A DNA stretch of 64,000 bases from Streptomyces sp. TSRI0107. Its GTDB lineage: Bacteria; Actinomycetota; Actinomycetes; Streptomycetales; Streptomycetaceae. Positions within the stretch are counted from its first letter, which is position 1. Each line of letters starts with the position of its first letter. Where the stretch lies: positions 1-64,000 of the forward strand of contig NZ_LIVZ01000016.1 of assembly GCF_001905845.1 (NCBI RefSeq), read 5' to 3'. A model generated the notes under the pieces. It was not told the DNA's origin. It saw only the letters and a list, made by a program, of their open reading frames with translations, and made no database searches. Positions 2,633 to 8,663 of the stretch are shown here, piece after piece. The position numbers and the translations under genes are program-made.

Positions 2633-3370
2633 CTACTGCGGGAGCCGCAGCGCCAGTCCGTCGAGGACGACCTCCAGGCCGTAGGCGAACTTGGTGTCGC
2701 GCAGGGCCACGGGGTCGCCGGCCGCCTCCATGGCCTTGCCGTACGAGGTCGACAGATGGTCGTGCTCGGAGGCCGCCTGCTGAGCGGCGGGCATGAGGCG
2801 GGCGATGAAGTCGGCCTCGCTCTCGCCGGACCGGGCCACGGTGACGAGCCAGGCGCTCTCCGTGGTGCTCATGCCGATGACGTACGACAGCACGGTGTCG
2901 ATGGCGCGGCTCGGCTCCGGGAAGCCGACGGCCGTGAACAGGGCGGCCAGGCGCTCGGAGAAGGACATCAGATTGGGGCCGAGGTAGGCCAGACCCGCCT
3001 GACCGAGCACGGACGACAGCCAGGGGTGGCGCAGGGAGGTCGCGCGGAAGGAGGTGGCGGCCTCGGTGACGGCGGCCCGCCAGTCGGCGCCACCGGCGGG
3101 CCGTACGTGGATCTCGGCGGCGACCTCGTCCACGGCCAGCTCCATCAGCTCGTCCTTGGTGGCGACATGCCGGTAGAGGGAGGTCGCGCCGGCGTTCAGG
3201 CGGGCGGCGAGCTTGCGCATGCTGAGCGCCTCGACACCCTCGGCGTCCAGCATCGCGACGGCCTCGCGGACGATCACCGCGCGGCTGAGGGCGGGCTGGT
3301 CGGGTTCGCTGCGGCGGCGGGCCCAGACTGAGGGGATCGGGTTCTCGTCCTGCTTGGACCTCGGGGCCAT
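2633..3370 (-). CDS. TetR/AcrR-family transcriptional repressor
   Basis: 245 aa. The start is ATG at 3370, preceded by GAGGAGAGCCC; an upstream in-frame start (3487) lies inside the operator array and is rejected. The N-terminal helix-turn-helix is at about residues 33-77 (AVAMLDAEGVEALSMRKLAARLNAGATSLYRHV in pieces), with the usual 'LYRH' recognition helix. The rest is an all-helical ligand domain of the tetracycline-repressor C-terminal type (HPWLSSVLGQ, GFPEPSRAIDTVLSYVIG). It is divergent from a 14-helix DHA2 efflux gene across 155 bp holding five operator-like repeats. The arrangement says it represses the pump and itself and is released by a pump substrate, which is unknown. Confidence 0.9.
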   Translation of the reverse strand: MAPRSKQDENPIPSVWARRRSEPDQPALSRAVIVREAVAMLDAEGVEALSMRKLAARLNAGATSLYRHVATKDELMELAVDEVAAEIHVRPAGGADWRAAVTEAATSFRATSLRHPWLSSVLGQAGLAYLGPNLMSFSERLAALFTAVGFPEPSRAIDTVLSYVIGMSTTESAWLVTVARSGESEADFIARLMPAAQQAASEHDHLSTSYGKAMEAAGDPVALRDTKFAYGLEVVLDGLALRLPQ

Positions 3371-3391
3371 GGGCTCTCCTCGCGCATCGAT

Positions 3392-3485
3392 GCGTACATC
3401 GTTCGCATCCAGCGTACAGAGTTCGACTCTTGCGCACACTGTTCCGCTCTGCGTACAGTGTTCGCAACGAAGGAACAGTGTTCGC
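3392..3485. promoter_or_regulatory. array of five 15-bp operator-like repeats, 20-bp phased
   Basis: Copies are GCGTACATCGTTCGC (3392), GCGTACAGAGTTCGA (3412), GCGCACACTGTTCCG (3432), GCGTACAGTGTTCGC (3451) and AGGAACAGTGTTCGC (3471). Starts are 20, 20, 19 and 20 bp apart. The best copy is a near-palindrome (GCG-T-ACA-G-TGT-T-CGC). They fill most of the tetR/MFS divergent region, starting 22 bases from the tetR start codon, and are the obvious candidate binding sites for the TetR protein. Confidence 0.75.
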
Positions 3486-3525
3486 AAGAGTTCGCAACGG
3501 ATGAGAACGCAGGGGGAGCAGCCTC

Positions 3526-5079
3526 ATGAACGCCCGCACCGAACAACCTCAGTCGCAGAGCCGCGACCCGCGCCGCTGGTGGATCCTCGTGGTGCTCTGC
3601 CTGAGCACGCTCGTCCTGGTCGTCGACAACATGGCGCTGACCGTCGCGGTGCCGGCGATGACCGAGGACATCGAGGCCACCGCCCAGGACACCCAGTGGA
3701 TCCTCGACTCCTACATCCTGGTCTTCGCGGGCCTCCTGCTGACCTCCGGCAGCCTCGGCGACCGCTTCGGCCGGCGGAAGGTGATGCTGATCGGCCTGCT
3801 CCTCTTCGGGGCGGCGTCACTGGGGGCGGTCTTCTGCTCCAGCCCCGGCGAGGTGATCGCCGTACGGGTCGCCATGGGTGTCGGCGGGGCGCTGATCATG
3901 CCGTCCACGCTGTCGATCCTCATCACCGTCTTCGACGAGGAGGAGCGCGGCAAGGCGATGGCCGCCTGGGGTTCGGTGTCGATGCTCGGCCTGGTCGGCA
4001 GCCCGGTCCTGGGCGGCGTCCTCATCGACCACTTCTCCTGGCAGTCGATCTTCCTGATCAACGTGCCGATCGTCGTCCTCGCCCTCATCGCCGGCCGCAC
4101 CCTGATGCCGGAGTCCAGGGCGCCCTGGCAGAAGCCCGATCCGCTCGGCGCGCTGCTGTCCGCCACCGGTATGACCGCGCTGGTCTGGTGGATCATCGAG
4201 ATCCCGCAGCACGGCGCGTTCGGCGGCGACTCCCTGATCACGTCGGCCGTCGCGGCGGTCGCGCTCATCTCCTTCGTGATCTGGGAGAACGTCACCTCGT
4301 CCCCGATGGTCCCGCTGGTCCTGTTCAAGCACCGCAACTTCAGCGGCGGCTCGCTCTCCCTGGCGCTCGTCCAGATCGGCAACGGCGGTCTGCTGCTGGT
4401 CCTCACCCAGTACCTGCAGTTCGTGCTCGGCTACTCGCCGGTCAAGGCCGGTCTGGCCTTCCTGCCGATGGCGGTCGCGGCCCTCGTCGGCAACGGCGGC
4501 GGAGTGAAGCTCGCGCAGAAGATCGGCAACCGGTTCGTCATCCTGGCCGGCATGCTCGTGATGGCGGGCTCCTTCGGCCTGCTGGCCACGGTCACCACCG
4601 ACTCCGGCTTCACCGTCCCGGCGGTGGCCCTGGGCCTGCTGGGCCTCGGCGCCGGCATGGCGATGCCGGCCGCGGTCGCCGCGCTGATGGGCACCATCCC
4701 GGCCGACAAGGCCGGCGTCGGCTCCGCCCTCAACGACACCATCCAGCAGGCGGGAACCGCCCTCGGCATCGCCATCCTCGGCTCGCTGCTGACCAGCTCC
4801 TACACCGCCGAGATGCCCTCCGACGCCCCTGAGCAGGCCAAGGAGTCCATCGCGGGCGCCCTGGCCGTCGCCGAACCCGACAGCGGCCTGCTGCCCGCCG
4901 CCCGCGAGGCCTTCACCACCTCTATGTCCACGACCTTCACCCTCAGCGCGATCGGCGTCCTCGCCGCCGCGGTCGTCGCCACCCTGGTGATGCGCGACAA
5001 CAAGCCCGAGCAGCCCGCCGAAGACGCCCCCGAGACCCCGGAGAAGAACCCGGAGAACACCCCGCAGCCGATCGCCTGA
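3526..5079 (+). CDS. DHA2-type (EmrB/QacA) MFS multidrug efflux transporter
   Basis: 517 aa from ATG with AGGGGGA upstream. A hydrophobicity pattern of about 14 membrane helices starts at residue 19 (WWILVVLCLSTLVLVVD). It carries the DHA motif near the end of helix 1 (LVVDNMALTVAVPAM), motif A between helices 2 and 3 (GSLGDRFGRRK) and motif C in helix 5 (GSPVLGGVL). This is a proton-driven exporter of drugs or toxic metabolites. The C-terminus is a hydrophilic Glu/Pro-rich tail. It is controlled by the divergent tetR and ends at a strong hairpin abutting tRNA-Ile. Its substrate cannot be read from sequence. Confidence 0.9.
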   Translation: MNARTEQPQSQSRDPRRWWILVVLCLSTLVLVVDNMALTVAVPAMTEDIEATAQDTQWILDSYILVFAGLLLTSGSLGDRFGRRKVMLIGLLLFGAASLGAVFCSSPGEVIAVRVAMGVGGALIMPSTLSILITVFDEEERGKAMAAWGSVSMLGLVGSPVLGGVLIDHFSWQSIFLINVPIVVLALIAGRTLMPESRAPWQKPDPLGALLSATGMTALVWWIIEIPQHGAFGGDSLITSAVAAVALISFVIWENVTSSPMVPLVLFKHRNFSGGSLSLALVQIGNGGLLLVLTQYLQFVLGYSPVKAGLAFLPMAVAALVGNGGGVKLAQKIGNRFVILAGMLVMAGSFGLLATVTTDSGFTVPAVALGLLGLGAGMAMPAAVAALMGTIPADKAGVGSALNDTIQQAGTALGIAILGSLLTSSYTAEMPSDAPEQAKESIAGALAVAEPDSGLLPAAREAFTTSMSTTFTLSAIGVLAAAVVATLVMRDNKPEQPAEDAPETPEKNPENTPQPIA

Positions 5080-5126: not shown

Positions 5127-5200
5127 TGGGGCTAACAGGATTTGAACCTGTGGCCTCATCCTTATCAGGGATGCGCTCTAACCAACTGAGCTATAGCCCC
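5127..5200 (-). tRNA. tRNA-Ile (anticodon GAU)
   Basis: On the minus strand the sequence folds into a cloverleaf: acceptor GGGGCTA/TAGCCCC with discriminator A, D-arm AGCTCAGTTGGTTAGAGC, anticodon loop CTGATAA (GAU at 5164-5166 on the complement) and T-arm CAGGTTCAAATCCTG. No CCA is encoded (ACAG follows), so the CCA-adding enzyme at 35396 is needed. It lies downstream of the DUF3566 gene in the gyrase cluster. Confidence 0.97.
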
Positions 5201-5240
5201 GCCGCGCTCTGCGGTGTGTGTCCCGCGCGCTGACTCCTGA

Positions 5241-6068: not shown

Positions 6069-8663
<2,595 letters not shown>

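Follow-up and report, generated by a model that had tools for sequence, protein, structure and literature searches.

Between a tetR gene and the gene of a predicted efflux pump, which share one divergent control region, five near-copies of a short palindrome follow each other at an almost constant step. The locus thus raises the question of what these repeats are, and why there are so many of them at so regular a pitch. The window, i.e. the whole stretch of 64,000 nucleotides of Streptomyces sp. TSRI0107 DNA that was analysed, contains the following features at this place, with a gap of 155 bp separating the two genes.

2633 to 3370, reverse strand: tetR gene, 245 aa, Pfam domains TetR_N and TetR_C_1, N-terminal arm of about 28 residues
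3391 to 3407, unstranded: putative operator site 1, TGCGTACATCGTTCGCA, over the predicted tetR start point, conserved at register -59
3411 to 3427, unstranded: putative operator site 2, AGCGTACAGAGTTCGAC, left half kept, right half degenerate, holds the predicted tetR -10
3431 to 3447, unstranded: putative operator site 3, TGCGCACACTGTTCCGC, over the predicted pump -35
3450 to 3466, unstranded: putative operator site 4, TGCGTACAGTGTTCGCA, over the predicted pump -10, strongest and most conserved
3470 to 3486, unstranded: putative operator site 5, AAGGAACAGTGTTCGCA, in the predicted pump 5′ leader
3526 to 5079, forward strand: gene of a predicted MFS (DHA2-like) efflux pump, 517 aa, Pfam MFS_1 1.3e-54

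Five palindromes between tetR and the pump gene

The consensus TGCGnACAnTGTnCGCA is an imperfect palindrome of 17 bp, which occurs five times between tetR and the pump gene. The first-pass annotation had described five 15-bp near-copies spaced by 20, 20, 19 and 20 bp, and these were recovered where it had placed them; their starts (3392, 3412, 3432, 3451 and 3471) mark the cores of 17-bp palindromes that start at 3391, 3411, 3431, 3450 and 3470, with the same spacing. It had also claimed that the array fills the region between the genes. The sites are present, but they cover 3391 to 3486 of the 155-bp gap. Compared with TGCGTACAGTGTTCGCA, sites 1 to 5 match at 15, 13, 12, 17 and 13 of 17 positions, respectively. 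An additional right half-site, GAGTTCGCA, lies at 3488 to 3496, 10 bp past the right half of site 5, and is not kept in the orthologs.

To obtain a background, we shuffled the 155-bp region 2000 times in a dinucleotide-preserving manner. The maximum chain length of 17-mers that matched at steps of 19–21 bp was one in 1770 shuffles, two in 228 and three in 2, versus five in the observed sequence. When the whole genome was searched, a perfect three-site array was found at this locus only. Perfect two-site pairs occur twice at this locus and once each at two other places, and a perfect single site was found elsewhere just once, on a different contig, with a similar site 24 bp away. A large regulon in this genome was rejected, because the array is unique there. 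At L162:1477-1517 of the same genome (contig C6, near 121298), GGCGTACGGTGTACGCG and TGCGTACGGCGTACGCA lie 24 bp apart, upstream of the ATG that opens a TetR-like reading frame.

The neighbouring genes

The adjacent regulator is a SimR/ActR-like TetR protein with a TetR_N helix-turn-helix, a TetR_C_1 domain and a SimR fold. Both Pfam matches exceed their gathering scores (TetR_C_1 9.8e-15, TetR_N 7.1e-8). The nearest solved structures by sequence are SimR (3.3e-31), PamR2 (2.1e-29) and ActR (4.6e-18), and SimR is also the best fold match of the AlphaFold model (mean pLDDT 82), including the DNA-bound form 3zql. Residues 11–18 of the N-terminal arm, around PIPSVWAR, are nearly invariant among the orthologs; the arm has low confidence in the AlphaFold model. 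The flexible arm of SimR is described as binding the minor groove in a title cited in PMC5812520.

For the pump, the best NCBIfam match is LfrA (1.2e-82), followed by QacA/B and SmvA, all of them under their cut-offs (LfrA 278 of 825 bits, QacA/B 251 of 900, and the EmrB subfamily 225.7 of 230.2). As the MFS_1 threshold is reached and the cut-offs of the named pumps are missed, we refer to it as a predicted DHA2-like pump. Positions 2061 to 2447, adjoining tetR, encode a small protein that matches DUF6344 and has a hydrophobic N-terminus. A sequence on the reverse strand (5130 to 5205) resembles a tRNA gene, as judged by its appearance. A gyrA-like gene (6069 to 8663) lies downstream of the tetR/pump pair, which is therefore near gyrase genes.

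Conservation of the array

Regions with the same gene pair were gathered from about 100 genomes and yielded 98 distinct intergenic regions from Streptomyces, Kitasatospora and another family of the order. The first-pass annotation had proposed to look for the same array beside the orthologous pair in other Streptomyces; it was found there, and a position weight matrix detected at least three sites in 97 of the 98 regions, with a range from three to eight. Five sites are most common (53 regions), followed by four (23), six (9), three (6), seven (4) and eight (2). Successive spacings are 18 bp in 3 cases, 19 bp in 126, 20 bp in 179 and 21 bp in 27, with few others, i.e. 335 of 377 lie between 18 and 21 bp. 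A further 31 are 39–41 bp long, representing one weak site that is skipped. Site 4 is nearly invariant, with a median matrix score of 27.4 (87 regions).

The matrix was trained on the same orthologous regions that it scored, and therefore the matrix-free column conservation and a pattern search matter. The column-wise information content peaks at every site and falls off in the linkers and past +36. When a fixed pattern was searched for, with tetR absent from the query, 53 of 296 Streptomyces genomes had a three-site array, as did only 6 of 396 genomes from the phylum as a whole; most of these arrays adjoin this tetR/MFS pair or a tetR relative. The reversed pattern, used as a control, was found in 2 Streptomyces genomes versus 53 for the true pattern. 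In the 61 Streptomyces genomes that both searches covered, the array and the tetR ortholog co-occur (10/13 versus 2/48 genomes, Fisher 1.9e-7).

The association extends to more distant relatives. In the other family of the order, with TetR proteins 42–49% alike, most regions also have five sites, and in a further family of the class two genomes carry arrays with a 20–21 bp pitch beside a TetR (39–40%) and an MFS protein (49–50%). Sister TetRs (51–57%) have one to four sites at 18–20 bp, in one case beside an MMPL transporter. Streptomyces griseus NRRL WC-3645 (L055:3933-3968) offers a natural control: its tetR ortholog (82%) has no divergent pump gene and a metalloprotease-like neighbour, and keeps two sites only, 19 bp apart. 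For 20 TetR_C_1 paralogs (32–41% alike), a motif-free test gave no convincing array of at least four sites; one of them, L183, has three sites at 18 bp. This test led us to reject the array as a general trait of all TetR_C_1 paralogs. A distinct 21-bp array, GTACRNYGTAC, is present near 3845 in L113, L116, L120, L124 and L156, where it adjoins a 32% TetR relative and a DrrA-like ABC transporter.

The first-pass reading of the repeats as operators of the adjacent TetR in front of an efflux pump gains from these results, i.e. from conservation in about 100 species with the pair, from the arrays beside tetR relatives in the tetR-free search, and from the two sites at the pump-less tetR. The repeats are very probably operators of the adjacent TetR that lie over both promoters, and the comparison of sequences makes this protein the well-supported putative repressor of the array.

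Predicted promoters within the sites

Three promoter elements were predicted.

3411 to 3416, reverse strand: predicted tetR -10, TACGCT, inside site 2, kept in 86 of 87 regions
3430 to 3435, forward strand: predicted pump -35, TTGCGC; TTGCGN-N18-TACRGT kept in 93 of 98 regions
3454 to 3459, forward strand: predicted pump -10, TACAGT; TTGCGC-18-TACAGT spans sites 3 and 4

Both promoters are predicted to be embedded in the operator sites, with start points that are likewise predicted, near 3466 for the pump and near 3404 for tetR. The pattern TTGCGN-N18-TACRGT, present in 93 of the 98 regions, occurs in none of the shuffled regions, and the T at 3430, outside site 3, is still 99% conserved. On the tetR side, 86 of 87 regions have AGCGTA at a constant distance ahead of TTGCG. 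The first base of site 2 is A rather than T in 90% of the regions, whereas the other sites mostly start with TGCG, so that the reverse complement TACGCT is a plausible tetR -10. A scan of the locus for consensus sigma-70 promoters found none, and no tetR -35 was recognisable; the evidence for the promoters is therefore their conservation. In the resulting layout, the tetR start would lie under site 1, the tetR -10 under site 2, the pump -35 under site 3 and the pump -10 under site 4, with the pump leader under site 5 and any further sites. Such a layout would account for the variability of the right half of site 2.

Geometry of the array

The even spacing had been taken to place all sites on one face of the DNA. 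With 10.5 bp per turn, 20 bp are not exactly two turns: a step of 20 bp turns the next site by -34 degrees and a step of 19 bp by -69 degrees, each base of spacing variation corresponding to 34 degrees. Sites 1 and 5 are 79 bp or 7.5 turns apart, so that site 5 is rotated by about 171 degrees from site 1 and the two lie on nearly opposite faces. The same-face claim therefore stands for neighbouring sites and fails for the array as a whole, for which this arithmetic rules out strict phasing. SimR-type repressors bind as one dimer per 17-bp operator (PMC4150764), and a 20-bp pitch is therefore equivalent to close packing. An edge-to-edge arrangement of 17-bp footprints accounts for the pitch no less well than strict phasing does, and the array is best seen as a series of dimers placed edge to edge, each slightly turned.

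Proposed mechanism and alternatives

We favour, with a probability of roughly 60%, an operator array over both promoters on which TetR dimers assemble cooperatively. From the biology of SimR, ActR and TetR, we infer that the protein would bind the sites, repress, and be released by a ligand that the pump exports. The geometry suggests that neighbouring dimers touch, which would give cooperativity and a steep switch. In the absence of inducer, occupation by dimers would begin at site 4, the strongest one, which overlies the pump -10, and would spread to the adjacent sites; with a 17-bp footprint every 19–21 bp, the dimers would lie edge to edge in a short, slowly winding row. This row would cover both promoters and both start points, with the pump tightly repressed and tetR repressing itself. 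A drug-like ligand bound to TetR would free the row, and both genes would be induced. Most orthologs retain only one half of site 2, and some have a weak site 5 or none, so that not all sites would need to be bound.

The same operators and the same repressor might also act through independent sites, packed closely only to fit the footprints over two overlapping promoters; their multiplicity would raise the local repressor density, tune autoregulation and add redundancy. We consider this somewhat unlikely. It would agree with 19–21 bp being about the tightest packing for a 17-bp footprint, with spacings that differ by one base, with SimR, of which one dimer binds per 17-bp operator (PMC4150764), and with ActR and SCO7222, whose shifted complexes equal the number of their sites (PMC3511530). 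However, wider spacings are seldom seen even past +20 in the leader, where no promoter overlap forces packing, and the weak site 2 is held at the exact pitch.

It is improbable that only sites 3 and 4, and perhaps 1, operate, and that sites 2 and 5–8 are promoter- or duplication-derived copies of little function. In favour of this reading, conservation of site 2 is mainly confined to the half that also serves as the predicted tetR -10, one clade has a weak site 5 or lacks it, and sites 5–8 have a common variant of the left half. Yet the scores of sites 1 and 5 are far above background in most orthologs, and downstream sites were repeatedly gained and lost while their palindrome core was kept. 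A different or global regulator binding to the repeats, or a structural element unrelated to this TetR, is highly improbable, given that the array co-occurs with this tetR clade, is unique in the genome and persists as a two-site remnant at the pump-less tetR. A chance or low-complexity similarity, for which nothing speaks beyond the high G+C content, has a negligible probability: none of the 2000 shuffles reached four copies, and conservation in about 100 species led to the same rejection.

Variation in site number and a possible second target

The TetR tree requires at least nine changes in the presence or absence of sites downstream of +30, and such added sites almost always keep the register, lying at +40 to +44 and +62. 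The left half GGAAC is common to sites 5–8, so that some downstream sites may stem from tandem duplication. The in-register gains may in part reflect such duplication, which preserves the pitch without selection.

The same cassette, TTGCGN-N18-TACAGT within two to four sites, precedes a gene of the beta-lactamase fold (PF00144) in four Streptomyces genomes.

L150:3936-4011: hydrolase cassette
L153:4009-4044: hydrolase cassette
L145:3982-4037: hydrolase cassette
L148:4036-4090: hydrolase cassette

The four PF00144 proteins are 74–89% identical to each other, and all four genomes hold a TetR that is 53–71% identical to the one described here. Judged from these sequences, the hydrolase gene is perhaps a second target, regulated in trans. 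No hydrolase-type array was found in the genome of the window, which contains only a 35% relative of the hydrolase. We tentatively propose, as a possibility rather than a probability, that in this TetR clade three to eight dimers assemble cooperatively into a left-winding row, that the row lengthens in evolution by units of 20 bp, that its length sets the tightness or steepness of efflux induction, and that the operator-promoter cassette was reused in trans at the hydrolase gene.

In the literature surveyed, characterised TetR repressors have one to three operators. Orthologs with three to eight sites at a fixed pitch thus represent a natural series for the effects of operator number, in which leakiness, steepness and inducer threshold could be tested, as well as the formation of an ordered row of TetR dimers on DNA. 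The motif and the promoter cassette are well defined and can be used for finding the regulon, and the locus offers a repressor with a probably drug-like ligand.

Comparison with known systems

Among the closest known systems is simR-simX of Streptomyces antibioticus, in which SimR has two operators (PMC5812520). SimR is the nearest solved structure by sequence and fold, the divergent tetR/MFS exporter pair with a shared control region is the same, and 17-bp operators and the N-terminal arm are common to both (PMC5812520, PMC4150764). In contrast, the SimR operators are two separate ones, versus five contiguous ones here and three to eight in the orthologs, and the proteins have about 36% identity in a structural alignment. 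ActR (actR-actA) and SCO7222 of S. coelicolor are also TetR-family repressors of divergent genes with several operators. Each has three, giving three shifted complexes, but with other operator sequences, and the accessible text of PMC3511530 reports no conserved 20-bp pitch.

SGR3979 of S. griseus, a footprinted regulator with two 17-bp operators (PMC3511530), shares related half-sites (TGCGTA-N5-TACGCA) and differs in having two sites and the core ATGCT instead of CAGTG. Genomes with the first SGR3979 operator have two sites 21 bp apart, beside a distant TetR relative; the TetR of that locus is about 27–40% alike to this TetR over part of its length.

A control region bound by more than one dimer is also known for QacR, CprB and CgmR, and binding is cooperative for QacR and CprB (PMC4150764). 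There, two dimers share one site of 22–32 bp, in CprB on opposite sides of the DNA (PMC4150764), whereas here separate 17-bp palindromes follow every 19–21 bp. EthR of Mycobacterium tuberculosis, likewise a TetR-family repressor, octamerises cooperatively on its operator, according to a title in the reference list of PMC5517500; no array of distinct palindromes is claimed for it.

A partial search of the literature, with few subscription papers, gave no published TetR array with five to eight operators and, in the same papers, no match to the operator sequence as text. The first-pass annotation had held that this array has more operators than usual TetR pairs, and the characterised relatives agree with it, with two for SimR (PMC5812520) and three for ActR and SCO7222 (PMC3511530). 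The predicted promoters within the sites and the arrays of up to eight sites in relatives go beyond what that annotation had described. The array is a long, conserved variant of the familiar TetR repressor/efflux switch.
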